From Falciphora oryzae (Eukaryota > Ascomycota > Sordariomycetes > Magnaporthales > Magnaporthaceae), in assembly GCA_000733355.1 (NCBI GenBank), contig JNVV01000018.1:534967-598966 (forward strand): a stretch of 64,000 nt of DNA, in the 5' to 3' direction. The notes under the pieces are model-generated. The model saw nothing but the letters and a program-made list of their open reading frames with translations. It was not told where the DNA came from and did no database searches. Of the stretch, positions 3,671 to 57,061 are shown piece after piece. The translations under genes were made by a program, and so were the position numbers. The stretch's first letter is position 1; every line of letters begins with the position of its first letter.

Positions 3671-5092
3671 TCACTCACCAGCCACACCCATCGCGTTCAT
3701 CATCCAGCTGCGAAAAGGCCCCCCTACCCATTTGCACAGCTCGCGGAGCACGGTAAACAAACTGTACACCGATTCCAGGTTCTGGGTCCCTCCTATGTCG
3801 ATCGGACCGATAATGTCGATCTCCTCACCTCGATCGCATGCAAAGTAAAGACTCCACGTATGGCTATGGCTGAGGAGCAGCGGCAACGTGGTGATGCGGC
3901 CGGCTGGGCCAGGCAGAAGCTCAGAGATGCGACGGTGCCACGCAGCCGTCCAGATGCCGAGCTGCGATTTTCCTCCCGTGGCCGCAGCGAGGTTCTTAGT
4001 CTCGATACTAACTCCAATGGGCTTCATGGCGACCGGCTCGTAATTGGTCTGGTTGATCGTCTTGTGGCCGTCCCGTTGCTCGCCGACCACTTTCTTTACT
4101 GCTTTGGCGAAGGCCCGATCTGCCGGTTGCGGGTCGCGCAGATCAATAACAAACGCGTAGTCGACCATTTTGCCGCTGGTGGTGTCCTTCGTGTCGCCCG
4201 CCAGCGCGGGGAGCCACTGGTTGGCGATGGTCGCGCCCATGACCGGCTCACAAATGACCGAATCCGACGTGCACCGAGCCGTCAGGCTGAGCAGGGGAGA
4301 GTGCACCAGGTTGTTCCACGCCAGCTCGCCCCGGCCATCCGTGAGGGACTTTGCGGCGTCGGCCACAATCCGGCGCAAGTCATTGAATTGCCTCCGCGCT
4401 GAAATGTGTATGTCACCCAACTCGTCGTCGCAGTCGGCCCAGACAGCCAACTCCCGTGCGTCTTGCTCTTCTTCCGACCTGAACCAGCTGTCTGGCCAAT
4501 CCGGACCGTCGGCAACCTCGGCATGTATGACACGTCGCGCCGCCGCCGGTATGAAGCCCGCCTTATATTTTGTGATCCGTCTTAAACGTGTAAATAGCGG
4601 GTGGATATCGCAAGGCAGTTGCCCTAGGGCGTCCTCCGCAAGCGGCTTGAAGTCGACGGGCTTGTCGAGGAAGGTCAGGTCGAGGACGCGTTTCACTGGA
4701 CTGGTGGATCGACGGCCTGTGGAGCGGGACTGCCCGGAGGATTTGGATGCGGAGACGGAGGCCGAGGGACAGGATCGTGAGTGCGGCGCGTCGAATGATC
4801 GGAGGGGGATGGGGTCCCATGCCGGTGGCTGCTGCTGCTGTAGAAGCAGCAGCCGCTGAGCCTCGTCGGGCCTGCTCGCTGGTCTTGGAGTTTCGTCGTC
4901 GTCGTTCCCGCGGTTGGAAGCCCGTTTCCTCTTGGAAGGGGATGTCGACGGTGGGGTGGGTGGCATATCGTAGCGTCGTTTTTCCCGGTTGGAGACGAGA
5001 CGTTCTTGCTGGAATTCGCTCTCGTTGATCGAGCCTAGCCACGCGCAGACGCGGCATGAGCTACAGCAGAAGAGATCAGGTGTGCAGTCCAT
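3671..5092 (-). CDS. PD-(D/E)XK nuclease-like domain protein (fungal, PDDEXK_12 type)
   Basis: Single exon, 473 residues from the ATG at 5092; the frame stays open to 5197, so a longer N-terminus is possible. Residues 1-25 are Cys-rich. Residues 43-140 are disordered, with basic Ser/Pro and poly-Leu/Gln stretches. From about residue 190 a compact alpha/beta domain follows. It contains G-E-L-A-W-N-N (Glu near 256), V-D-Y-A-F-V-I-D-L (Asp near 311) and S-I-E-T-K-N (Glu364, Lys366). These match the E...D...ExK pattern of PD-(D/E)XK nuclease folds and the layout of a large fungal accessory family. Activity is not shown; many members are of unknown function. It lies upstream of a NACHT gene, with a retroelement remnant between them. 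Confidence 0.75.
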   Translation of the reverse strand: MDCTPDLFCCSSCRVCAWLGSINESEFQQERLVSNREKRRYDMPPTPPSTSPSKRKRASNRGNDDDETPRPASRPDEAQRLLLLQQQQPPAWDPIPLRSFDAPHSRSCPSASVSASKSSGQSRSTGRRSTSPVKRVLDLTFLDKPVDFKPLAEDALGQLPCDIHPLFTRLRRITKYKAGFIPAAARRVIHAEVADGPDWPDSWFRSEEEQDARELAVWADCDDELGDIHISARRQFNDLRRIVADAAKSLTDGRGELAWNNLVHSPLLSLTARCTSDSVICEPVMGATIANQWLPALAGDTKDTTSGKMVDYAFVIDLRDPQPADRAFAKAVKKVVGEQRDGHKTINQTNYEPVAMKPIGVSIETKNLAAATGGKSQLGIWTAAWHRRISELLPGPAGRITTLPLLLSHSHTWSLYFACDRGEEIDIIGPIDIGGTQNLESVYSLFTVLRELCKWVGGPFRSWMMNAMGVAGE

Positions 5093-5997
5093 GGTGGGAG
5101 AAAGGCGCTGGCAAGTTTGCATCGAACTTTTGATCGTCGCAAGGCGCGGCTGTTTTGTTGTTTTGGCGCTCGCCAGTTGGTTGGCCCGCTCGTTCATTGG
5201 TCCGTGCTCGCCCCCGCAAAAGCTGGTTGGCTGGCGGGTCTGTGCACGCTGAATAAAGTCACTGCGTTACAATCCCTCCTCATTGAACCTAGGACCAACA
5301 GTAGGCTCGTTGGTCCCCCGTATCTCCGGCCAGGCCCAGGGGGGGTCCCGAGGTCCCTTCCGCCACACCCGGCCTTACTCTTCTTCCGGCACGTTGCCGG
5401 CCGACAGCGTCCACTACCACCAACAGCAGCGCTTACAGCGCCCTGGCGTTTATTCGCCCTTTTTGCCGATTGCCCGCTCACCAACAAGGAGCGCCGGAAT
5501 GCGGCCTGAACTCCGTGTGCCTTGGGCTTGCCCCATGGTTTGATTCTGTTAGCCGCCTCGATAGCAACACGTAGCCTAGTGTAAAGCTTAGGTAGCGCTA
5601 GCACGTCGTATGCCCCTTGGGAGGCAGGGACTGGTAGATCCCGATTTTCCGACGTTAAATAAACTCACTCACTCACTCACTCACTCCTCATTGAACCTGG
5701 CTATTATCGCCTCAGGCACCCAAGCAGGGGCATGCCTACGCCTCCAGCCTGCCCCTCTTGCTGTTCATGTTCCCCTGTTCTTCCCTCTGTTGCATGCGAT
5801 GCAGGATTTGATTAGTCAAGTGCACGGACGTGTTGGGCAGGACGCGTTGCGGGCAAAATTTTGCGGAAAATCTGTCCAGGCGGGCATGGCGCATCATCAA
5901 TCAGACAAATCAATCAATCAATCCAATCAGATCAATTCATTCTCGTTACGCTGTGCAACACCCTCCGCCATCTGCAACCCCACACTGACACGCGGCG
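5093..5997. other. Intergenic region holding a retroelement remnant
   Basis: Besides the insertion at 5276-5698 described separately, I see no gene. A short AT-rich stretch with tandem AATC-type repeats (near 5905-5935) precedes the next start codon by about 60 bp. Confidence 0.6.
5276..5698 (+). mobile_element. 5'-truncated LINE-like insertion with target-site duplication
   Basis: A perfect 15-bp direct repeat, CTCCTCATTGAACCT, occurs at 5276-5290 and 5684-5698. The 393 bp between them end on the right in TTAAATAAACTCACTCAC and further ACTC units, a simple-sequence 3' tail placed directly before the second repeat. Target-site duplication of variable length plus a short-repeat tail is the hallmark of target-primed reverse transcription by non-LTR elements. 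The body has weak plus-strand coding character but no identifiable domain, consistent with heavy 5' truncation. The element lies between the nuclease-like and NACHT genes. Which LINE clade it came from cannot be told. Confidence 0.6.
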
Positions 5998-8785
5998 ATG
6001 GACCCCATCAGTGCGTTTTCCATCGCCGCAGGCGTCATCGCCTTTGTCGACTTTGGAGGCAAAATCATCTCCACCTTCTCCGACATTCGCCAATCGGATG
6101 ATGGTCTGCCCAGCCAATGGTCCGCCCTTGTGGCTGAGGTTCAAGAACTGTCAGGCCATGTGGCAGCCGCAAAGGGGACTATCTCGAGTCTCCGGGCACG
6201 CTATCCCAGGCAAGCCGCGGCGTTCGAACGTCTGGATGGAGATTGCGCCCTGGCCGCACAGGAGCTGCAGGCCTTGGTCAATGGCCTAGCGGCTTGCCCA
6301 GGCAAGGACTTGAAATCCCGAGCATCTCAGGCCATCGCATTCGCTCAGGGGCTTCAGAAGCGAGGCGAAGTCAAAGCCCTGGAGGGACGGTTCAGCAGCA
6401 TCCGGCAGCAAACACAGCTGAGCGTAATAATGTGCATCTGGTAATATTTCTGTCTCCTTCCCATGATATTTTGCAACCCTCAGGGTTGGTTTTTCCGTCT
6501 CGTGATATGACATCCTGACACTGCTGCTCTGTCTGCGACAACTACCCAGGGACGATGTTGTAGCACTCAGAAACCAACAAAAGGCGACGGCCACAGACAA
6601 CCAACCCGGTTTGAGAAGGTCCATCGACACCATTCAGTCCGGCGATGCGCCCATACGCCATGGACAGCAACAGCCGCCCATAGCCAGCCGAAAGATGATG
6701 GCTGATGTACTGTGGGAGTCAACGACGGCAGCGCTGGAATCCACCGGCCCCGTAACCTACATCCCGCAAAAGAGCCGCTCCACCAGGCGTCAAGCCCGGA
6801 ATGCACTCAAGGCCGTCCAACTCCGAATTCTAGAAGGCCTAGTGTTCGACGATATGGTGGCCCGCAAAAGCCAAATCCAGTCACCATTCCCCAAAACCTT
6901 CCAATGGCTTCTTGGAAGGAACCCTCCTGCGAGCGATGGGTCTTGTCTGCCACAGGAGAACCGGCCGACGGACTCCACGAGGTGGCTGGAAAGCACCAAG
7001 GATACCCCGTTTTGGATCACTGGCAAACCAGCCTCGGGAAAAAGTACTCTGATGAAGTTCATATGCACGGATCCAAGGGTGAAAGAGAGTCTTAGCATGT
7101 GGTCCGGACGCCTTCGACTTGTTGTATGCGACATCTACATATGGAACCCAGGACCCTCAATGCAAAAAAGCCAACTTGGCCTCCTGCGTACCATTCTCTA
7201 CCAGATCCTCCTCCAAGAGCCGGAGCTCTGTCATCACGCTGCCCCAAAACACTATCTATACTTCCAGCTCCCCGCCGAAGGTATCCCTGATCCCCCCGAG
7301 TGGACTGTTGATCAGCTTCGAGACGCCATCACTCGACTTGTGTCTGCTGTTCAGAACTCGCATCGCTTCGCCATTTTCATTGACGGTTTGGACGAATACG
7401 AAGGCAACCTGTCGGAGCTGGTAGAGTTCCTGAAAAGGCTATGCGAGGGTCCTGCCGTCAAACTCTGCGTTTCCAGTCGCCCTTGGAACGTTTTCAAAGA
7501 TGCTTTCGATACCTATCCATCCCTCAAAATGGAGCTTTTTACCAAACCAGACATCGAGGAGTACGTCCAGAAGCGAATCGCAGGGAGTCGGGCATTCCAG
7601 GAGCTTCGGTGTATCGATGCGTCGAGCGTAAAAGACCTCGAGTCTCAGATCGTCGAAAAAGCAGAAGCGATATTTCTCTGGGTTGTGTTGGTGGCAGAAA
7701 GCCTCTTGGTAACCGCCCAGGACGACAACAACCTTCAAACCATCTGGAAGGTTTTCGAAGCCTTGCCTCGTGGACTGGAGGAGCTTTACAGCTCGATGCG
7801 CCACCGGCTTCAGCAAGCAAGACTTGAGCAGGCGTCCAAGATGTACCAGCTTCTCTTCCAATGGAAAGCAATCAAAACCCTCGACGAAATGCACGCTATC
7901 GACTTTTGGGTGGCAGTGAGCGACGAGGACCCCACACAACCCAAAGAATATCCGACCGAAGCCGCAATAGCCAACATCAAACCTCTTCTTGAGCGACAGG
8001 TCGGAGGATGCACCGGAGGCATTCTTCAAATTTTGGTGAGCGGTCACCAATGGACCGTTGAGCTTCTTCATCGAACGGTGTATGACTGGCTGAACGACAT
8101 ATGGGCCACGATAATCGATGACGGGCCATCAGATTATGACCCGGGCATAGCCATTGCATCTGCTCTCGCCTCGAGATCCAGGTCAACGAACCGGGTCGAC
8201 GGTGTTGGAGATATCTTCCGCTTTGGGCGGACCTGTAATGAATCACCAGCGTCAAGGTCTGCACTACTTCGGATCGTTGACGGACTCAAGCCTGAAGACC
8301 TTAGAAATGCCCTATGGCGTCGAGTAGCCAGTTCGAGCAAGGAAAAGGCTATCTCACGGCTGTCCGACGGGGAACTTCGAGTGTTGGCAGCAATAGTCTA
8401 CGCTTGCGCACCGTATCTTGAAGCGAAGTTCGAAAGCGGTTCCCTGGTGGAGACCTTTGGGCTCGCCAAACCCCGCCTATTCGGGTGGCCAATATCACGC
8501 AAGAACAGACACCAGGAAGATCGGCTATCATTGACTCTGCGAGCCGTGTCGGACGCCCTGTATTGCGAGTTCACAACAGCGCAACACCTGCGTGTTCAAA
8601 CCATCAAGCTGCTTTTGAAAGTTCCATCGATTCCCAGAAAGGAAATTCTAGAAGAGGTCAGGCAATGTCAAGCTCGGATGACACAAGGAGCAGATGAATA
8701 CCGGAGAGAACTCCTGGAAATGGTAGAGGGAGGATCCTTCACGAAGTCATCTGAGCAACGCAGCGAACCTCGAGGCCGAAGGTAG
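5998..8785 (+). CDS. Fungal NLR-like STAND protein with NACHT domain
   Basis: Exons are 5998-6440 and 6550-8785 (intron 109 nt, GTAATA...CCCAG), giving 892 residues. Residues 1-150 form a helical N-terminal region beginning M-D-P-I-S-A-F-S-I-A-A-G-V-I-A-F. This is typical of the N-terminal domain that fungal STAND proteins carry before NACHT. The NACHT domain has Walker A G-K-P-A-S-G-K-S-T near residue 306, Walker B F-I-D-G-L-D-E-Y near 424, and a V-S-S-R-P-W sensor near 456. After it comes the helical region usual for this class (L-L-H-R-T-V-Y-D-W-L). No WD40, ankyrin or TPR repeats follow, so it is a repeat-less NLR. Relatives act in non-self recognition and heterokaryon incompatibility; that role here is inferred. 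Further 3' splicing at GTAGGT beside the stop is possible. Confidence 0.85.
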
Positions 8786-9184: not shown

Positions 9185-12100
9185 TTACTCGTCGCCGCCC
9201 TCGCCCTCGTCGAGCTCGAAAAGATACTTGCCAGAACCACCGTGGTCGACATACTTGTCGAAGCTGTTGCCCTCGCCCTCGAACTCGCCCATCAGCAGCT
9301 GCATGGCGTAACACTTGCTGACCTTGCCGTTGGTCACGCTGTACTCGACGTCCGGGCTCTCGAGCATCTCGACGCCCTTGACCGGATCAGCAGCCACAAA
9401 CAGCCTCGGCGAGCTGCCGTCAGCGTAGCCGCACATGATGAGGTAGAAGACCCTGTAGTCCGGGTCGACGGCGAGGTAGTAGTAGCCGTCCTCGGCGTTG
9501 AGGTCGTCGGGCGACAGCGCCACGGGGACGGCCTGCTTCGGGACGCTGGTCTCGTCCGACACCATGAGGCGCGAGACGCCGGCGGCGGCCATGGTGTTGG
9601 TGTAGTAGTGCATGAGGCGGGTGGCGCCGTCGGCGACGACGATGTCCTCGTAGGTCGCCCGCATCTCGGTGCAGTACTCGACGTCGGCGCTGAGGTCGAC
9701 GGCGTAGATAGCGCCGCTGCCGCACGAGATGAAGATCATGGAGCCGTCCCGGACGGTCAGCAGCGAGTACTCGTAGCCGTTGCTCGTGTTGTACGGCATG
9801 TTGGGCAGCGAGGCCGGCTCGTAGGTCAGGGTCGTGGCGTTGGACTTGACGGAGCTGGCCAGGTCCTCGACGGTACCGTTGGAGGGCGCGGCGGTGACGT
9901 TGCCGAACTTGGCGGCGGTGGCGCGGCGGAGCTGCGGGAAGGCGGTGTCGCGCTTCTCAAGGTTGGTATCTTCGCCTGAGCCGCTGGGCTCGGAGCCAGC
10001 ACCAGAGCCAGAGCCAGGCTCAGTGTTCGAGTTGTCGGCACCAGATCCGGAGCCGGAGTCCGCTCCTGATCCTGATCCTGATCCTGATCCAGCATCCGGG
10101 TCTTGGCCAGAGCCCGACCCGGAGCCGGAGCTAGTTCCAGCCTCGGGACCCTGGGTTTCCTCAGGGTCGGTGCCAGATCCAGCACCCGTTCCTGACCCAG
10201 AGCCTGGGCTTTCGGAGCCTGATCCACTGCCGGGGTTTTCCTCAAAGCCAGATCCCGTGCCCGGCCCAGAGCCCGGGTTCTCTTCGGAGCCAGAGCTGGG
10301 GCCAGTTCCAGTACCCGTTCCAGATCCGGAGCCCGAGCCCGCATCCGGGCGATCGGGAAGAGAGATGCATCCCCGCTTGAGAACCATATCTCCAGTGTCA
10401 TGGAGAGGCTTGCCAATCGTCTTACCGGCGGACCCAAGGAAAAGAACATTCCTCCAGCTGATCTGCGTGCGGATGCTCGTGCAGCTGTTGATCTCCTTGA
10501 AGCTAGCTGAGAAGGTGTTGGCCGGGGTCAGGCTGGCCGAGGCAGCGACTTGGGCGGTAGCCTTGATGGAGGGCTCGTCGATAATGCTGCTGTCGAGCTT
10601 GAAGCTGGGCACGGCGATACTTAGCTTGATACCGATGGGCGGACCAAGCTCGGCCGACAGGATGATCTCGCCCTCAGCCTGGAAAATGGGCTTGAACTGC
10701 GGGTCCCAGCCGGCCTTGTTGCTCTTGGACGAGTCGAGGAGGTCGAGCGTGACCCTGCAGCCCGCCAAGCCCATCTCGGCGCCGGCGAGCAGGCGGCCCT
10801 TGGCCAGGGCGGTGAAGCCGACGCGCACGCCGGCCTCGACCCAGGGGCCGATGGTGATGACGCCGAAGCTGAGGCCGGGCAGGCCGACGCGGAGGAGCGT
10901 GGTCTTGATGTTCTTCTCGTACCGGATCTGCGCGTCGACGCCGGACTTGAGCTTCATGCCGGCGTCGGCCTTGACGTCGACCGTGGCCGAGATGATGCCG
11001 GCGGGCAGCCAGGTGACCTTGCCGGTGAGGCTGATGGAGCCCGAGGCACCGCAGCCTACGCAGTAGACGTTCATGTAGCCCGACAGGCCCTCCTTGCCGG
11101 CGGCGACGGCGCTGGCGTCACTGAATGACTTGATGAGGATGGCATCGCCCCATGGCGACGCGACCTGCTTGGTGTCTCCGAGCAGCTTGTTGGCGGAAGA
11201 TCCCGAGTCGCCTAGGCCGGGCAGGCGGAAGGAGATGTCCTTGTTGAGCGTCGTTGTGGGGAGCTTGCCTCCGTTCGCAATCAGGATGATGGCCGAGGCA
11301 GGGTATGCGATCGGGGCCGTGGCCACCTTGACTAACGTCTTGACGAGCTTCTTGAGGAACTTGAAGCGCTTCTCATGAAGATGTTGGTCGTAAACTGCTA
11401 CCCCGTTCAGGTCCCTCTTTGCAACATCAACGCCGTCGAGATCCATGTCGGGCGCTATCATCTTGGCGGACTCATTTAAGCTGGCGCTGAGGCCGCCCGC
11501 ATCCCCGAGGTCGACGTCGAGATCGCCATCGAAGTAGTCGCCCAGGCACGCCGTGGGGAGGCCGTACTTGGTGTCGACGGGTGCCACGCACCCGTCGCTG
11601 GCTCCGAAGCTGCTCGTCGAGTTGCCATCGTCATCAGTGGTATAGGTGGAGTTGGAGCCAACCCGGCCGGTGGGGAAAGGCGCGCGAGAGGAGGTAGTCG
11701 TGCTGGCCCGCGAGAACGTTCCAGACGAAGAGGCAGCGCTTCCTCCCGAGCATCCGCTGGAAGATGTCGGAGAGGGAGCGAGCGTGGCGGACCGGACCGA
11801 TGTCGCGGAAGCCGTCGAGTCGCTGCTGGGCTTGGGTGCGCGGTTCGGCTCCCACCAGCCCCAGTTCGCCTCCGCCTTGTCCATCATGGTCTCGGGGTCC
11901 TTGAAGGAGCCCTTAACCGCGATGGTGAGTCCATTCTTGAAGTCAATGGCAGTGACGCTGAAAAAGCAGCGGTCACCGTTGGCAGCACCGGCGCACCCCT
12001 TGGCGGAGGCGATCAGGATGATGTTGGCGTCCCAAGTCTTGACGGCGCGGTCGTAGGCTGCCTTGCTGGAGAAGGAGACAGTGCAGCCCGTTGCCGTGCA

Positions 12101-12686
12101 GGCAACGCTGGTGACATGGCCGCAGTTGTCGAGGTTGACGGACGGGGCGCTGAAGTGGTAGGTGAGGAAGCCGAGGTAACCAGACTTGGTCGGGTCTGTG
12201 TTTGACGCCCGGGCCGGCCACCTCTGATCAAGAAGCATATCATGCGCATTTGCTCGGCATTTTCTGCCCAGTATCACTTACCTGATGAACCGTAGTACAG
12301 CTGGTTTCCGCTTCCGACGTCCACGGGAACGACGTTGCTGATTTTCGAGGTGTCTGTTCCTCCATGGACAGTGGGCTTGAGTTTGACGGCCTCTGATTCC
12401 TGCGAGAGAACAGGGCCCGACTTGCTACCCCACGGCGAAGACCCACTCCGTCCCGACGAAGAGGAAGACGAAGGCTTGGGCGCCATCGGGCGACCGAAGA
12501 TGTCCTCAGAGGGGCATTCCGGTTTTTTTTTTAGCAGGGCAGCCGCCTTGGGGCTGGGCGTAGACGGTGGTGACCTCGAAGCCACCCGGCTGTTCGATGG
12601 ACGAGTTCGCCCACTGTTGGACGGCCGGGACGGCAGCGACGCCAGAAGCCGCCCAAAAAAAGGGCGGCAGCGGCGGAGAAACGCAT
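9185..12686 (-). CDS. Large secreted DUF7029-type protein, reading frame broken by two homopolymer indels near the N-terminus
   Basis: The 3' exon 12195-9185 is intact (about 1,000 residues). It joins a 5' exon (12686-12282) through an 86-nt intron (GTAAGT...ACACAG). The 5' exon begins with a signal-peptide-like start (M-R-F-S-A-A-A-A-L) at 12686. The frame changes at a 7-nt homopolymer (12655-12661) and again at a 10-nt homopolymer (12533-12542); one base fewer in each gives one continuous frame. The first domain (S-V-N-L-D-N-C-G-H-V, later C-T-V-S-F-S) matches the fungal DUF7029 pattern. A Ser-rich linker and a second globular region (DUF7223-like) follow. Then comes a long Gly/Ser/Pro/Glu linker (9966-10351) and a C-terminal domain of about 240 residues. 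Likely an extracellular or wall protein; function unknown. Sequencing error is as likely as a real lesion. Confidence 0.7.
9966..10351 (-). repeat. Gly-Ser-rich coding repeat in the DUF7029-type gene
   Basis: Degenerate codon repeats (GGC/TCT/GGA/TCC types) encode about 125 residues of G-S-G-S units mixed with E-N-P, D-P-E-E and A-G. The stretch connects two globular regions and probably acts as a flexible linker. Confidence 0.8.
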
Positions 12687-14767: not shown

Positions 14768-15418
14768 ATGAAGGTCACCACCTGCATCGCTATGCTCCTG
14801 GCTGCGGCCACCACCGCTGCTGCCCTGCCCATGCCGCAGCAGCAGAACGCCGGCAACACCAACGACGACTGTGCTCTTCAGAAGCGAGGCGGCAACACCC
14901 AAAACGCCCAAGGAAACCAGAACAACCAGAACCAGGGCAAACAGAAACAAAATCAGGGCAACCAGAATCAGAACCAGAACAACGGGGACAACCAGAACAA
15001 CCAGGGAGGCAACCAGAATAACCAGGGAGGCAACCAGAACAACCAGGGAGGCAACCAGAACAACGGGGGCAACCAGAACAACAACGGCGGCGGCAACAAC
15101 AACAACAACGGTGGCGGCGCCGGCGGAGCCGCCGACTTCGGCACGTGCAACCCGACCATCGAGTTCGCGCTGGGCCGGCCGGGCCGTAACGCGGACCAGG
15201 GCACCTTCCTGCCCGTGGACCCAGCGATCCTGCGCGGCCAGTCCGACGCCCTGAACCCCAGCATCATCATGAACCGCGTGTGCGACCAGCTCAACTCGCA
15301 GACCTGCGGCGCCAACCAGGCCGCCATCCAGCAGTGCCTGTCCGCCAAGGCCCAGACCGAGGCCGCCGGCACCAAGGACGCTACTACGGCCGACCTGTTC
15401 AACAGCCTCGTTCAGTAG
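14768..15418 (+). CDS. Secreted Asn/Gln/Gly-rich repeat protein
   Basis: Single exon, 216 residues. A signal peptide (residues 1-19, ending A-A-A-L-P) is followed by a short propeptide-like segment with a dibasic K-R at about residue 40, a possible Kex2 site. Residues 43-120 are almost entirely N, Q and G, built on tandem G-G-N-Q-N-N-Q units. A conserved-looking C-terminal domain of about 95 residues follows. It begins F-G-T-C-N-P-T-I-E-F and contains V-C-D-Q-L, Q-T-C-G and Q-C-L (four Cys in all). Such layouts occur in fungal wall or extracellular proteins, but I cannot name the C-terminal family. The Q/N tract has prion-like composition. An unusually long CT-rich leader precedes the start. 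Confidence 0.8.
   Translation: MKVTTCIAMLLAAATTAAALPMPQQQNAGNTNDDCALQKRGGNTQNAQGNQNNQNQGKQKQNQGNQNQNQNNGDNQNNQGGNQNNQGGNQNNQGGNQNNGGNQNNNGGGNNNNNGGGAGGAADFGTCNPTIEFALGRPGRNADQGTFLPVDPAILRGQSDALNPSIIMNRVCDQLNSQTCGANQAAIQQCLSAKAQTEAAGTKDATTADLFNSLVQ
14985..15110 (+). repeat. Tandem repeat encoding N-Q-N-N-Q-G-G units
   Basis: An in-frame 21-bp unit of the form AACCAGAACAACCAGGGAGG occurs several times with few changes and then decays into AAC/GGC runs. The array is a likely site of length variation between strains. Confidence 0.8.
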
Positions 15419-48947: not shown

Positions 48948-49938
48948 TTTGAGGTTTTGGTGGAGCGGAGGCTGCTTGAGGACTGTTGCAGGGCTGTAGG
49001 TGGGTTGGTCGAGGTGGTGGTGGTTGCGTGGAAGGTTTGTGAGTTTGCTGATTGTATGGAAGGCTTGTAGGCTTGCTGAGTGATGCTGGATGAAGATCTG
49101 GAACGACGGAAGGGAGGACACATCTGTGGCGTCTTATACCCGTAGACCTTGAAGAATCCGAGATGCCATCTTCAAAAGCTGCCCACGCAGCTGCCTACCT
49201 CGGCGTTGCTGCACAGGTGTTGAGTCGGCGAAGCCGATCTGTTGGCGCTGCTGGCGACGACAACATCGTCGTCGGGCTTGTCAGAGCTGCACGCGATGCA
49301 TGCGATCGGGGCTGGGACTGGGGACGTCTGCGAGGCCTATGCGACTTTCAGCACTCAAACATCACGACCGATTTCCCTACTACTGGCGAGAACCGAAGAC
49401 GCAGTGGAATCGGAACCACAAAGGCTGGACTAATGCGGAAATGCGTGCTGACGGCCGGCGGTTCGCGAAAGCAGAAGGCCAGCTGAAGGATGGGGCCCAA
49501 CATCGCCGACCACGTAAGCAGGGCATGTCCGACTGGATGGGGCCGACGCAGACCGCCTGCTTGGCATGATACCTTCAATATACACACGAAAAAAAAAAAA
49601 AAAAAAACATGGGAATGAAGAAGAAAAAAGGGGATGTTTTTGGTGGTGCAAACCACTCTGTCGACCTACCCGCCCCTCCAGCGCCAAGCATCGAGGCCAG
49701 CAGGTACTTCGACAGACGCCGAATCGCTCTGGGTCGCCCGCGGGTCATTAGCTGGAAGCCCTTGGCACTCACGTCTCCAAAGGCTGTGGCTAGCAGGTGT
49801 TCCACATGTAACGTTTTGTTTATTTTCTGAATTTTCTTGCTGTTCTACGCATCTGTCACGACGCTCTATTCCATCAGATAGACGTCGGCCTCGAGGGCAC
49901 GGGTGTTGATCTACGGCATGCATGATTAGTTCCACAGC
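48948..49938. other. Intergenic, about 1 kb
   Basis: It contains the minus-strand TATA-like box near 49133-49138 and a 19-nt A run at 49589-49607. No gene seen. Confidence 0.55.
49589..49607 (+). repeat. Poly(A) tract, 19 nt
   Basis: Flanked by ACACACG and CATGGG, identical to the flanks of the tract at 41865-41892. Confidence 0.95.
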
Positions 49939-51618
49939 TTAGGTACCCAGAACGTCCATAGGGGGAAACAAAAACGCTGGGGGACCCACGGTCTTGGGGC
50001 TGATGTTCTTGATGTCGGCAATGCCCGCCTGGGCAGCGTCGTGCGCAATCTCCGCCTTGAGGATCTGGATGGCCTTGGTGACGCCGGGAAGCTTGTAGCA
50101 GTTTGCGTACATGAAACTGTTCACCAGAGCAGAGATTTCATCATCTTGTCAGCATCGGATCCAGCAAAGTGGTGGTCATAACCCATATCGACGGGAGAAG
50201 AAGAAAAAAAAACACATACGGCCGGCCCAGCCCAACGGCCTTGACGCCCAGCGCGAGCAGCTTGAGGACGTCGCTGCCGTAGCGGACGCCGCTGTCGGCC
50301 AGAACCTCGACCTTGTCAAAGACCTCGGGCGCGTTGCGGCGGATCTCGTACGCGATCTCGAGCGGCGACGGCGAGTACTCGAGCTGCCGTCCGCCGTGGT
50401 TGGACAGGTAGATGGCCTTGACGCCCCGCTGGACCGCCTCGAGCGCGTCCTCGACCGTCGTGATGCCCTTGAGCACGATTGGCAGGCTCGTGTGCTTCTT
50501 CATCTCCTCGTAGATGTCCCACTGGTGACGGCAGCGTGCCGCATGTGTTAGCTATAGTTAAGGGGCGGGTGTGAACCGGGGGAGATGTGGGAAGCTTACG
50601 GTCAGAGCAGAGGTCACCGAGTTGCTGCAGGGGGAGCGGGAGTTTGGTTAGCTAGTTAGACCCAGGGGCTCGTTAAAGAAGTGGTTGCAGCAAAAAGGGC
50701 CACATACGCATTGGTCGTGTCGTATCGCGCAGCGCGGTGCCGGGTCGAGTCGGCGGGCGCATCGATGGTCCAGACGATGGCCTTCGCGCCAGCCGCCTCG
50801 GCGCGGCGGATCTGGTCCCAGGTCACGGACAGGTTGGCGTTGGTGTACATCTGCTGGAACGTGACCTGTGGTCCGTTCAGAGTGCCGTTGCGGTGCTTGG
50901 CCTCGCCGATCTGCTCGATAGACTTTGACGCGTACAGGGCCGCCTGGGGTAGGAGAGCTTGGGTCAGCTGGCTGAGATACTCCTTTCCACGCTCGTGATA
51001 GAAGTGAAACTGTTTCTTACGACGTAGAGGATGTTCTCGTTGGCCGAGGCGTCGACAAAGTTGAGCTCGGCCCGGTCAGGGTCTCCGTACGCGCCGCGCG
51101 CGGCGGGTGCGATGAAGAACGGGGCGCTGAAGTTGTAGCCGAGAATAGTTGTCCTATTAGGTCACATGCTTGTAAGCGACATGCTCGTTTTCGTGAACAT
51201 TCTACGTGGCTAGTAGACACCCACGGGAGCGTCTCGTTCACACGGGTAACATCGCTGAGTTGCCGGGGCCGGAACTTGGCCTTGCCCCAGATCTCGAGAT
51301 TGTTCCGGTAGCCTGTAGTGATCTGTTGTGTCAGCAAAGCCGGCCGGAACCATGTCGCTGGACTCAGACCGAAGACTCACTCCACTCGCCAGCGGCAGCG
51401 ACCCTGTAAAAGGCGTACTGCTGGTTGGTCAGGGACTGGCGCGCGGCCCACTCGAAGTCGGGAATGCCGCGCATGTCCTTGAGCAGCGGCTGGGTGCCCT
51501 TGGTGTAGTTCGTGCTGAAGAGGTAGTCCTCGAGGCCCGTGTCGGGCTCGTTGAGGAAGGGCCTCTCCGCCAGGACGGCGGCCGCCAGGGAGGCGAGCGC
51601 GGCGAGCGAGGTCTTCAT
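49939..51618 (-). CDS. Secreted FMN-dependent 2-hydroxyacid dehydrogenase/oxidase
   Basis: Seven exons: 51618-51381, 51312-51225, 51153-51021, 50943-50708, 50624-50600 (only 25 nt), 50521-50220 and 50116-49939; 399 residues with consistent phases throughout. A signal peptide (M-K-T-S-L-A-A-L-A-S-L-A-A-A-V-L-A) replaces the cytochrome b5 domain of lactate dehydrogenase relatives. The TIM-barrel flavoenzyme core has F-F-I-A-P-A-A-R-G, W-T-I-D-A-P, V-L-K-G-I, the catalytic S-N-H-G-G-R-Q-L-E, A-D-S-G-V-R-Y-G-S-D-V and G-L-G-R-P. Expected reaction: oxidation of an L-2-hydroxyacid with FMN, with O2 giving H2O2 if it is an oxidase. A minus-strand TATAAAA lies near 51802-51808. Upstream lies the CBM1 repeat-precursor gene. 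Confidence 0.9.
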
Positions 51619-53436
51619 TGTGACGGCGGTTGTTCTTGGCACCTCGGCAGCAGGGGTTCTCGGGGGCAGGAGACACCTAATACACGGAGCGGCCCGGCGG
51701 CGGTCCTAGCGAGCTGACGGCAGGAAAGGAGTGACTGCGGTAGCGCTGGATGACGGTAATCCTACATCACCGCGTCGTCCGCGCTCGCCGGGCCCCCGCG
51801 CTTTTATACCACCTTGGATATGGGGGAAAAAAATCTTGACGGGGATCCACCGGTCCATAGTCGATGCTCCGGCGCTGGCAAGTTCTGACACAAGTAATTT
51901 CAACGGTGACGACAGTCCTCGTCGATGGGGCTGCCGACCTTGTTTGGCGGCGGCGTCATGTCGCAATGCGAAATGCCGCTAGTTGCCCTGTCTCAACCAC
52001 CCCCTCGGTTGGGGTTACCCTGGAAAAGTGATCTCAATCAGAAGGTGGCATCCGACACGGGGCCGTTGTGGGGTTCGCCTCCTCGCGAGCGAGATCGAGA
52101 GTGCGAATCGGTCTTCTTCCCGTGGGTATGTGTTGGTGTGCAAGAGGGACTTTTGGGGGAAAGGAAATGACTGCTGCGATAAACTTAAGCGGATCCTGGT
52201 TTGCGTATAAAAGGCCCAGCGACGCTCCGGAATCGGCTCGGCGGATGGTCTTGTTGAAGCAGTTCGCGATATCGTGGTCGTCTCCATCAACGCGTGGAGT
52301 CCTGGCGGGTCATTCCGGCTGGCATTGCATCAGTCGCTCCCGGAGGCAACTGCCGAGGAACTTGCCCACCCAGGAGACAATATCTGACCACGTGCGCGCA
52401 ACAAGAGTTGAGCAGTTGGGGTGGTGGCCAGTGGACCAATGCGCCAACCAAAACCGTCAAATCTTCCTGGCTATGGCCGGACGGGCGGGTGGTGAGGGTG
52501 CTCCTTGGCGTTAGTCCGACCAATCAGTCACAAGGAAGGTTTACAGCACCGATACTGGGAGAGGGCCGAGACCGACTTGGGGGACGGCGCAGTCTCAGGT
52601 ACTCGAGAGCCCGACCTCAGCTCTTGATATAGCCTGATCTTCCAGTTCAGATAATCCAAAGCACTTGCATGGTTATCCTAGCCGGGAGCGGTTCTCGACA
52701 GGCTGTCATGACTACGAAATGGGTCAGGAAGAACGCCGTTTGGACCGTGAGGGTTGCATGTTTTAGCGACGGGTGTCATCGGGTCCTTGACCGAGCCAAT
52801 GACAACGAGACCTTTCCCTGCAGTCAATATAAATACAGACTCGAGTCCTGTTATTTGTCCCGCCCGGTTGGGTGCTTGTCACTTTGCCGGCTCGCTTGCG
52901 TCCTAGCCGGACCAGAAAACCGACGACAGCTTCTATTTTAATCCACCAGACGCGAGGAGGTTGCCCGTTATGGCTCGCCATGCAAAAATGCGCTTCCAAT
53001 CGCAATCCATCCTATTCCGCCTTGGTACGAGGCTGTGTACCTCGATCTGGGCATATCTGGGCCGATAAGCATCTGGGAACAGCCAGACGGTCGCTTGACG
53101 GTCGACGCGCTTTAATTTACTGGGCACCAATACGCATCGAGGTAGATATTGACCCGTAAAGTGCTGGGCCCATTCACAAAGCTGGACATAGAAGCCCAAG
53201 CACTTGGATATTGTCTTGCCTGCGACCGGATTCCGATCCGTCCTACCCTGCAATGCGCCAGCCCTGGCCTGGACTGGGATGCTAGATCGGTCCGCTCCCT
53301 GTACAACTGGCTATATCTAGATCTTTCTGCGCATCCTTTCCTCCTGAGTAGGCCTACTTGCTTCGTTCATCTTGTCCTCGCCGTCACCGGAGCCCTGAAA
53401 CAGTGATATCGAGATCCTTCTCAACAACGCGGCAGG
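51619..53436. other. Intergenic, divergent promoter region of about 1.8 kb
   Basis: It separates the FMN enzyme (minus) from the CBM1 repeat gene (plus). TATA-like sites are a minus-strand TATAAAA near 51802 and plus-strand TATAAAA near 52206 and TATAAAT near 52829. The plus-strand sites are 600-1,200 bp from the start, so a long leader or an unseen short transcript is possible. No coding gene was supported. Confidence 0.5.
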
Positions 53437-54985
53437 ATGCGCGCAACCTCGCATCTCCAGGCCTTGGCCGTGCTGGCCTCGGGGGTGTCAGCCCAGTGGC
53501 AGTCCACATGGGGACAGTGTGAGAAAGCCACCCCGTTCTCTCGCTAAGCTGCTAGGGCTTTCACCTAACTGACGGATATTTAGGTGGCGGTCAGGCCTAC
53601 ACTGGAATTGCTCGATGTCCCCCAGGCACGTTCTGTAACTATGGAAAGTAAGGACCCCGTCTGCCCTTGGAGCCACCTTGTGGAATTTCCCTGAAAAGAT
53701 AGAAGCGCTCCTGACCGGCCTCGAAAATCCAACCAGCCCCTGGTACTCTCAGTGCATACCCCCCGAGCAGCCGCAGCCGCAGCCGGGCGTGCCCGACTCG
53801 CCCATCATCACCGAGACGGTCACGACCATCTTCACCATCGTTCCCGGCCCGGACCCGGTCCTGGTCACGACCTTCTACAGCTTTCTTACGCCCGGCCCCA
53901 CGACGACCGCCAGGCAGAGCTACACCGTCATCGACGGTACCACCTGGATCATTGTCCCTGGCCACCGCAAGCGGACCCCCGCGACCGGGCAGCTGCTGGC
54001 GCGCGTCCCGGAGCCCACGGCCCCGGCGCACCTTTCTCCGGCGGCCGTTGCCGCGGAGGAGAAGAAGCGCGATGTGGATCGCGAGCCGGTCTACGATGCG
54101 CCGCTGGCCCCGGGGTTCGTCCGGGTTGTAGAGGCCGTCGAGAAGCGCGACGTCGACCGGCCGCCCGTGCCCGACTCTCCCCTTGCGGCTGGATTCGTTC
54201 GAACGGTGCCGGTCGCGAAGTCGGAAGTCGAGAGGCGGGACGTCGACCGCCCACCCGTGCCCGACGCGCCTCTCGCTCCCGGCTTCGCCAGGGCCGTGGA
54301 GGGTGGTGGCACGGCGGGCAAGAGTAAACGCGACGTCGATCGCGCACCGGTTTACGACGCGCCCCTCGCTCCCGGCTTCGTCCGGACCGCAGAGGTCGTT
54401 GAGAAGCGCGACGTTGACAGGCCGCCCGTGCCGGACTCTCCTCTTGCGGCGGGGTTTGTCCGAACGGCGCCGGCGGTGGCAGAGTTATCGGTTGAGAGGC
54501 GTGACGTCGGCCGCCCGCCCGTTTACGACGCACCGCTCGCGGCAGGGTTCGTCCGGGCGGCCCCTGATGTCGTCGAGAAGCGCGACGTGGACCGGCCGGC
54601 TGTGTACGACTCGCCCCTCGCGACTGACTTTGTCCGCACCGCACCCACGACAGTTAAAAAGCGTGATGTGGACCGTCCAGCCGTGTACGACTCTCCCCTC
54701 GAGGCCGGCTTCGTCCGCAAAGCGCCCAGCAAGGCGGAGGTCGGGAAGCGCGACGTGGACCGGCCGGCCGTCTACGACTCGCCACTGGATGCAAGCTTCG
54801 TCCGGACTGCTGCCCCGCTGATCGAGAAGCGCGACGTCGACCGCCCTCCTGTCTACGATGCTCCCCTTGCTGCGGGCTTTGTCCGGGAGGCGAAGCCGGG
54901 GAAGCGCGATGTCGACCGTCCGCCGGTTTACGACGCTCCCCTCGCGAGGGACTTTGAGCGGAAGGTGGGCCTGGTGCAGAGTTAA
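53437..54985 (+). CDS. Secreted CBM1 protein with eleven dibasic-bounded repeats (Kex2-processed repeat-protein candidate)
   Basis: Exons are 53437-53518, 53584-53647 and 53737-54985 (GTGAGA...TTTAG; GTAAGG...ACCAG), giving 464 residues. A signal peptide (1-19) is followed by a complete fungal cellulose-binding module, residues 20-55. It has Cys at 28, 39, 45 and 55 and the planar aromatic trio W25, W51, Y52. A Pro/Thr-rich linker follows with a dibasic K-R. From about residue 163 eleven units follow, each opened by KR (nine) or RR (two). The consensus is D-V-D-R-P-P-V-Y-D-A-P-L-A-A-G-F-V-R, then a variable 5-13 residue spacer often ending V-E before the next dibasic. Tyr is replaced by Pro in units 2, 3 and 5. 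Codons differ between units while residues stay fixed. This is the design of KEP precursors cut by Kex2 in the Golgi. Whether peptides are released, and what they do, is unknown. Confidence 0.85.
54064..54960 (+). repeat. Eleven-unit peptide-encoding tandem repeat
   Basis: Units of about 72-93 bp encode a KR/RR site, an 18-residue conserved core and a variable spacer. Synonymous differences are frequent (GAC/GAT, GTC/GTG/GTT, CGG/CGC/CGT/AGG), so the array is old and the peptide sequence, not the DNA, is kept. Confidence 0.9.
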
Positions 54986-55256: not shown

Positions 55257-57061
55257 TCAAAGAGTGTACCTGAAGTTAGGGTGGCGATGACCCAGGCGGT
55301 GGGCGTCAGGCTGCAGTAGCCGGTCGTTCCTGTCCCCACTCTCCCTCTTCTTGTTTTCCCAGCGGAGATAGCCCATGGTGACAATGGTGAGGATGAGGGT
55401 GAGGACGAGGGCGCCTAGGCTGACGGAGTGGCCAAGGCGGTAGTGGGGCCTGCGTGCACGGTTAGCGATACTCTCCAATGGAAGGATAGCTATTGGGCCA
55501 ACTTACATGTCCCGGGCGAGGTAGACAAAGGTGCCGATAAAGGCGGAGCAGTTGGCTAGCGAGATGATGACGCCGACACCTGTGGCACGCACATAATGCG
55601 GTGCGAGATTGTTGGACGCCCAGCCCTGAAAGAGCAACTTGTTAGCAAACTTGGTGACCACGATAGTCGTAAAGACAGGATGTAGTTGCAAGGGTAAACT
55701 AGGGAATGGTGTGCAGGATCTCACCATCATAAGCGCGGAGCACTGAAAGACACCCAGTCCAATGAAGAAGGTTCCAGCGTATTTTACCGGGTTCTGGTCC
55801 GAAACCAAAAGCATGATGTACCCAAAGATGCCCAGAAGAGATCCGCCGGCGATAAAGGGGCCGCGGACCTTGGTCTTGTCGGAGAGGTACGAGCAGACGA
55901 TGACGGATATGAAGCCGGTGACGTTGGGCGGCGCAGTAAGCAGCTGTGCGTGCGTCGCCTGGTATCCCATACCGGAGATGATGGACGGGAGGAAGAGGGA
56001 AAAGCTGTACAGGGGCACGAGCAGGCAGAACCACAGCAGGGACAGCAGGTAGGTCTGGGGCGCTAAGAGGGCCATCTTGACCCAGTGCCAGTTGAACTTT
56101 TCGTCGTCGACGTCGATGCTGCTGGAGCCGCCGGCGTCCATGCGCATGCGGCGCAGGGCGTGGTCGCGCTCCTCCTCGGTCAGGAAGCGCGACTCGGCCG
56201 GGGTGTTTGGCATGAAGAAGAAGCAGAGGATCCCAAAGACGACCGTAATGGCGCCCTCGACTAGAGAAAGGGGCGGGGGAGGACCTGTTAGCCGTCTGCT
56301 GCTAGACGAATCTGGGTTACTATGATGCCAACGCACTGAAGAAAATCCACGGCCAGCGGTTGTAGCCGCCGTACGAGATGCGGCCGAGCCCCGAGGCGAG
56401 CAGGCCGCCAAAGGCGCCGGACAGCGGGGCGGCCGAGTAGAAGAGGCCGCAGCGCAGGACCATCTGGTGGCGGCGGTAGAACATGGCGAGGTAGATGATG
56501 ACGCCGCCGAGGATGCCGCCCTCGAACAGGCCGAGCAGGACGCGGCAGGCGACGAGGGCCGGGAAGGTCTTGACGAAGCCGGTGCAGGTGCAGACGAGGC
56601 CCCAGGCGGTGATGAGGGCGGGCAGGTAGATGCCGGCCCTCACGCGCTTGATGACCCAGTTGCTGGGCACGTCGACGGCGATGTAGGGCGCGTAGAAGAC
56701 GAGGAGCGCGACGTTGAAGTCGGTGCCTGTCTCAATGCCCAGGTCTGTGGTCAGGCCGTCGATCTTGGCGTTGCCGATGTTGCTGCGGTCGATAAAGGAG
56801 AAGAGCCTAGACGAAGGGGCTGCTGTTAGCTGGCTCCTTTTTTTTTTTTTTCTGGCGAAGCTAGCTGTGGGATATAGAGGAGCAGCAGACTCACCAGATG
56901 CCGAACAAGAAGGGGAGAATGTGCAGGTCAAACTTGCGATCCAGTCTCTTGTCGATGGCCGGATCGAACTCCCCGTGCTCGTTGCCTGCTTTCTCGAGGG
57001 CCACATCTTTGGCCGAGGTTCGATCGGCCTCGGCCACTTGCGGAGACTCCTCTGACTTCAT
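55257..57061 (-). CDS. MFS transporter, anion:cation symporter (allantoate/nicotinate permease-like) type
   Basis: Five exons: 57061-56895, 56806-56337, 56260-55725, 55625-55507, 55449-55257; 494 residues. Intron 1 holds a 14-nt T run. The cytoplasmic N-terminus ends in K-R-L-D-R-K-F-D-L-H-I-L-P, the usual entry to segment 1 in Dal5/Tna1-like proteins. F-I-D-R-S-N-I-G-N-A and D-V-P-S-N-W-V-I-K-R-V follow, with W-G-L-V-C-T-C-T-G and F-E-G-G-I-L-G-G-V in the N half. The C half has W-A-S-N-N-L-A-P-H-Y-V-R-A-T and I-G-T-F-V-Y-L. It should be a plasma-membrane importer of organic anions; substrate unknown. It is convergent with the CBM1 repeat gene (271 bp apart). Confidence 0.9.

Follow-up and report, generated by a model that had tools for sequence, protein, structure and literature searches.

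A gene of the fungus Falciphora oryzae encodes a putative secreted protein in which a cellulose-binding module (CBM1) is followed by a long array of short repeats bounded by pairs of basic residues. The question raised by this locus is what such a precursor delivers and whether the module travels with the repeats. A Kex2-processed repeat protein (KEP) precursor that encodes a cellulose-binding module ties the peptide product to the plant wall. The gene is located on the plus strand at 53437-54985 of the window, i.e. the whole 64,000-nt stretch analysed (assembly GCA_000733355.1, contig JNVV01000018.1, here C18, positions 534,967-598,966 of the forward strand). We consider it fairly probable (about 0.66) that the gene encodes a KEP precursor with an N-terminal CBM1 which would be parted from the peptides. 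The spliced translation, with predicted splice sites, runs through 3 exons from the ATG at 53437 to the TAA at 54985 and yields a 464-aa product with the following features.

53437..53518 (+) exon 1: start, signal-like N-terminus (residues 1-19, putative signal peptide by eye) and start of the CBM1; spliced translation
53519..53583 (+) intron 1: 65 nt, GT-AG, predicted
53584..53647 (+) exon 2: middle of the CBM1; spliced translation
53648..53736 (+) intron 2: 89 nt, GT-AG, predicted
53737..54985 (+) exon 3: end of the CBM1, linker, Kex2-type site, 11 repeat units and stop
53494..53755 (+) CBM1 module: residues ~20-55, both introns inside; PF00734 and PDB matches
53756..53968 (+) Pro/Thr-rich linker: residues 56-126; spliced translation
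53969..53974 (+) KR127-128 (HRKR, then T): Kex2-type site between the CBM1 and the repeats
53975..54064 (+) spacer of 30 residues (129-158) before unit 1
54065..54142 (+) unit 1 (KR, core and spacer)
54143..54232 (+) unit 2
54233..54325 (+) unit 3 (RR)
54326..54403 (+) unit 4
54404..54496 (+) unit 5
54497..54577 (+) unit 6 (RR)
54578..54658 (+) unit 7
54659..54745 (+) unit 8
54746..54826 (+) unit 9
54827..54901 (+) unit 10
54902..54982 (+) unit 11: C-terminal, without a closing KR or RR, end of the core diverged

Residues 25-52 matched PF00734 in a Pfam scan with 31.7 bits (cut-off 20.6). In a gap-free alignment to PDB entries 4bmf and 1cbh, the spacing of the four Cys is the same, and W, W and Y stand at the positions where 1cbh has three Tyr. 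Aromatic residues of this kind bind cellulose (PMC3532174). The first-pass annotation had described a complete CBM1 with four Cys and three binding aromatics, and this description holds: the Pfam score above the cut-off, the four Cys and the three binding-face aromatics place the module in the CBM1 class, and cellulose binding is predicted. The genome contains 19 other CBM1 exon matches. No KR-repeat array was found in the CBM1 frame at the 15 of these loci judged by pattern (that is, all except L006, L022, L024 and L025), where introns could hide one. Ten further repeat-like frames were flagged in the 19 loci, and the five inspected were all Arg-rich.

The eleven KR- or RR-bounded units of the first-pass annotation were recovered in full. 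Each starts with [KR]R followed by DV, nine with KR and two (units 3 and 6) with RR, and the unit starts are at residues 159, 185, 215, 246, 272, 303, 330, 357, 386, 413 and 438. The units are 25-31 residues long including the dibasic pair and, counted whole, make up 66% of the protein. They consist of an 18-residue core with the motif DVDRxxV[YP]D[AS]PL and a spacer of 5-11 residues; the cores comprise ten distinct peptide sequences and eleven distinct DNA sequences. That RR heads units 3 and 6 is consistent with duplication of a three-unit block. Units 1-2-3 and 4-5-6 compared in register showed 34 differences and the five other block pairings 36-53, so that one off-register pairing was nearly equal (36 vs 34). 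The in-register pairs had a pS of 0.56 and a pN of 0.05, and the array looks old rather than recently expanded.

An 18-residue core kept at the peptide level despite many synonymous differences had also been noted, together with the suggestion that the substitution ratio be computed across the units, and the computed ratio agrees with this observation. The mean pairwise core differences at codon positions 1, 2 and 3 were 2.9, 2.0 and 9.9 (11 cores, 18 codons), and pS was 0.66 (dS ~1.6) and pN 0.13, which gives a pN/pS of 0.197 (codon bootstrap 0.097-0.322) for conservation measured among the units of one gene. By this measure, the units are evidently under purifying selection, with synonymous change near saturation. 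When the six frames were compared with the dibasic codons included, pN/pS was 0.20 in the coding frame, 0.29 in one reverse frame and at least 1.5 in the other four. The plus strand was therefore chosen because the CBM1, the splice sites and the repeat phase fix it, which pN/pS alone does not, and we regard the predicted gene and its architecture on this strand as genuine.

Neutral star-tree simulations, which ignore concerted evolution and shared descent, were run 1000 times at each of four settings (10, 15, 20 and 25 changes per unit). The dibasic sites are kept in all 11 units, whereas the simulated maximum over the four sets of runs was 10; in the 20-residue stretch of pair plus core ten residues are invariant, as against at most four in the simulations. 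These settings were lenient, because matching the third-position divergence takes about 30 changes. Given the high K/R content, the total of 12 [KR]R pairs is not extreme (mean 5.4 and maximum 15 in 20,000 shuffles), but 11 of the 12 occupy the equal position within each unit. It is thus the phase of the pairs, not their number, that exceeds chance. The unit analysis and the simulations together support the earlier proposal, made from the bare sequence, of a precursor with an N-terminal CBM1 and Kex2-type repeats.

According to PMC8528282, the sites favoured by Kex2 have Lys at P2, Arg at P1 and an aliphatic residue such as Leu at P4; a wider P4 list in that paper also includes Ala and Pro. 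In the array, Val or Ile occupies P4 (the second residue ahead of the dibasic pair) at 8 of the 11 sites, encoded by three codons, as compared to Val, Ile or Leu at 10 of the 59 other positions of ten spacers (Fisher p 0.0005, for units that share descent). By the wider list (L, I, V, A, P), the counts were 9/11 vs 32/59 and the difference was not significant (p 0.11). The outcome depends on the list. As the units are related by descent, neither the P4 nor the KR counts are independent trials, and P4 is supporting evidence only. P4 is Glu in unit 1 and Lys in unit 4. The P1' residue is Asp in all 11 units; in Pichia, Asp ranked with the P1' residues that gave better luciferase secretion (PMC3777899). 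The genome yielded one P-domain match. The gene concerned has both a Peptidase_S8 and a P_proprotein domain, and by this domain composition a kexin gene is present.

The twelfth [KR]R site, HRKR128, which the first-pass annotation overlooked, lies between the CBM1 and unit 1. Its P4 is His, which is not aliphatic, and its cutting may therefore be partial; judged from their P4 residues, incomplete Kex2 cutting may concern HRKR128, unit 1 and unit 4. If HRKR128 is used in the Golgi, the CBM1 is freed before secretion and cannot ferry the peptides to cellulose. This site alone decides whether the N-terminal domain of the KEP is a pro-region, a separate product or an anchor, and its cleavage is the weakest link of the explanation that we prefer.

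The relatives and surroundings of the gene were searched as well. In a set of ~5.8 billion proteins, the whole-protein query gave two matches at E <=0.001 among 7,997 scored candidates, covering 8% and 10% and with CBM1 in their Pfam lists, and the query with residues 60-464 gave none at E <=10 among 7,995; both queries score the top sharers of five-residue words within length limits and can miss distant relatives. Residues 52-131 gave no match at E <=10 among 19 candidates. Within the same genome, the repeats occur in one place (of two candidates) and the linker had one further match (C80:17761-17910, E 1.2e-4). The DNA of the whole gene matched the same place over 88 bp at 78% identity (C80:17738-17825; L030, L031, L034) with a frame-breaking insertion. 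In the 20 kb beside it, the best tblastn hits to the repeats (E 0.064) and to the CBM1 (E 0.99) were taken as chance, and C80:17738-17825 is apparently a linker relic without a convincing trace of the CBM1 or of a unit.

The nearest Pfam-matched neighbour is an MFS transporter on the opposite strand at 55506-57057, where we infer that two open stretches, one of them matching MFS_1, form one gene. No open stretch of at least 170 codons occurs between 49194 and 53639, and ~4 kb upstream of the CBM1 gene (49194-53436) are therefore free of one. Farther away in the window, a protein with a PDDEXK_12 nuclease-superfamily domain (182 bits) is encoded at 3674-5266 (-), a NACHT-type NTPase (NPHP3_N match, 72.8 bits) at 6506-8782 (+) and a 1030-codon open stretch with DUF7029 above and DUF7223 just below the cut-off at 9188-12277 (-); tandem repeats rich in CAG/AAC with periods of 12-24 bp are located at 14927-15118. 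NACHT-type NTPases occur in fungal NLR-like proteins. On another contig, four UstYa exon matches are clustered at C65:188069-191078, a possible separate RiPP locus.

According to the explanation that we prefer, Kex2 would act in the late Golgi after signal removal and cut at R128 and behind the dibasic pair of each unit, and Kex1 would trim the basic ends. Two kinds of products would be secreted: a free CBM1-linker protein of ~106 residues and eleven acidic, linear peptides, each 23-29 residues long, which comprise ten core types and probably undergo no modification beyond trimming. Their calculated masses are ~11.5 kDa for the CBM1-linker protein before glycosylation and ~2.44-2.98 kDa for the units. 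Instead of a carrier, the CBM1 would be a separate co-product or a pro-region for folding or export. The peptides would most likely act outside the cell, at the wall surface or in signalling.

Foremost among the alternatives, and itself unlikely, is an intact structural protein of the wall, in which the basic pairs would belong to a repeat of the extensin or Pir type and stay uncut; the first-pass annotation had considered such a wall-bound protein. The repeats are Pro-rich, and Extensin_1 (PF02095) matched the protein with 61.7 bits. A structure predicted for exon 3 alone from the single sequence had very low confidence (mean pLDDT 34.8), hinted at possible strands in the linker and showed no fold in the repeats, which would suit a protein of this kind, as would the lack of a significant P4 preference by the wide residue list. 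However, the Extensin_1 score is below the cut-off of 105 and the match is probably due to composition (Cin1_N was also below its cut-off in the protein scan, 17.1 vs 27 bits), and the conservation of all 11 dibasic sites, although the spacers vary from 5 to 11 residues, weakens the idea of an intact protein. Next comes the reading, rather improbable to us, that HRKR128 is poorly cut and that the CBM1 tethers the repeat chain, or a portion of it, to cellulose of the plant wall, where the eleven peptides would be freed at the dibasic sites by Kex2-like or other proteases. The complete CBM1 with its aromatic positions filled speaks for such a tether, and so do His and Glu as the P4 residues of R128 and unit 1, in place of the preferred aliphatic ones (PMC8528282). 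Against it stands an RKR site placed exactly between the CBM1 and the repeats. Moreover, yeast Kex2 resides predominantly in the late trans-Golgi network (PMC8528282), and Golgi Kex2 would part the CBM1 from the peptides before secretion. The earlier proposal of delivery to cellulose before or during peptide release is weakened for this reason, and delivery would require that HRKR128 remain uncut.

A precursor of the dikaritin type, with the cores cyclised by UstYa (DUF3328) enzymes to a RiPP, is much less probable than either of these. Tyr adjoins Asp in 8 of the 11 cores and DUF3328 genes are located near 22% of KEP genes (PMC7329392); UstYa enzymes encoded elsewhere in the genome could also act in trans. 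Yet Pro replaces Tyr in units 2, 3 and 5, none of the 13 UstYa exon matches of the genome lies on contig C18, and none was found in the 30 open stretches scanned of the 89 in the window. Because no UstYa match is on the contig, we favour linear peptides over cyclic RiPPs, with the proviso that the contig ends ~29 kb downstream of the gene and that side is only partly visible (its last 300 bases contain no telomere array). A decaying or non-functional gene, whose repeats would be a by-product of DNA duplication, has next to no probability in our opinion. No homologue was found among the scored candidates of the protein searches and the frame-broken linker relic exists elsewhere in the genome, whereas the frame here is open, pN/pS is low and ten positions are invariant despite the near-saturated synonymous change.

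In its repeats, the protein agrees with the published definitions of KEPs. KEPs were defined by at least three tandem repeats, each of at least 8 and at most 100 aa, between KR, KK, RK or RR, by a SignalP signal peptide and by a 40-residue-seed repeat score > 0.6 (PMC7329392), or by at least four KR/RR fragments, at least three of them alike, with motifs making up at least 15% of a protein which is not membrane-bound according to TMHMM (PMC6339444). The protein described here has 11 tandem units within the published length range and 12 [KR]R sites, its share of repeat units being counted directly and not by the Fimo pipeline of the latter paper. Like the KEPs of both studies, it has at least three similar peptides between KR or RR, a signal-like N-terminus and a kexin in the genome, whereas its core motif is absent from the conserved motifs in PMC6339444. 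A KEP without relatives is ordinary, since 2560 of 7878 KEPs, found in 1345 of 1461 strains, stand alone without homologues (PMC7329392).

The ascomycete alpha-pheromone signature, the STE13 dipeptide XA or XP after the Kex2 site, was absent, as all 11 units start with DV; alpha-pheromones need not all carry XA or XP. The description of these dipeptides as the alpha-pheromone signature is that of PMC6339444. What KEP peptides do is for the most part unknown, and knock-outs of genes for linear KEP peptides had no phenotype in axenic culture (PMC9769878).

The first-pass annotation had known of no well-described class starting with a CBM1. This holds in the main texts of PMC7329392, PMC6339444 and PMC9769878, where term counts gave no mention of CBM1 (one 'cbm' is a strain name), and literature searches found no CBM1 KEP in the titles and abstract starts listed and no match to four peptide strings of this protein. 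The supplementary tables of the KEP papers may already include a CBM1 KEP. KEPs with other surface domains are in print. Types S-6 and G-7 are annotated with Chitin_bind_1 and Hydrophobin_2, respectively (PMC7329392). S-6 from Neocallimastix and Piromyces resembles our protein in having a carbohydrate-binding module (Table 2 of that paper) but differs in that the module is chitin-binding and the phylum another one. Similarly, Hum3 of Ustilago maydis combines repeats between putative Kex2 motifs with a surface domain, which is however a hydrophobin placed after the repeats, and the Kex2-separated repeats of Rep1 give wall-surface peptides, ten of them of 35-53 residues, which form fibrils on the hyphae; unlike here, the repeats of these two proteins are amphipathic and the organism is a basidiomycete (PMC4617103). 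A Coprinopsis cinerea GH128 precursor unites a Kex2 peptide, detected as pyro-QSEPKPTN, with a carbohydrate-active domain, although this is a C-terminal glycosidase and there is no eleven-unit array (PMC9769878).

From the side of the module, CBM1 proteins without a catalytic domain are alike in having a non-enzymatic partner. The partners named in PMC3532174 are chitin-binding, CBM4, lectin, DUF and BNR, with no class of repeat peptides, and we infer that a repeat chain without a Pfam domain would be hidden among the single-CBM1 proteins of that study. The architecture is probably known in kind, as a KEP, and its N-terminal CBM1 is an unusual front end that would be cut off too.
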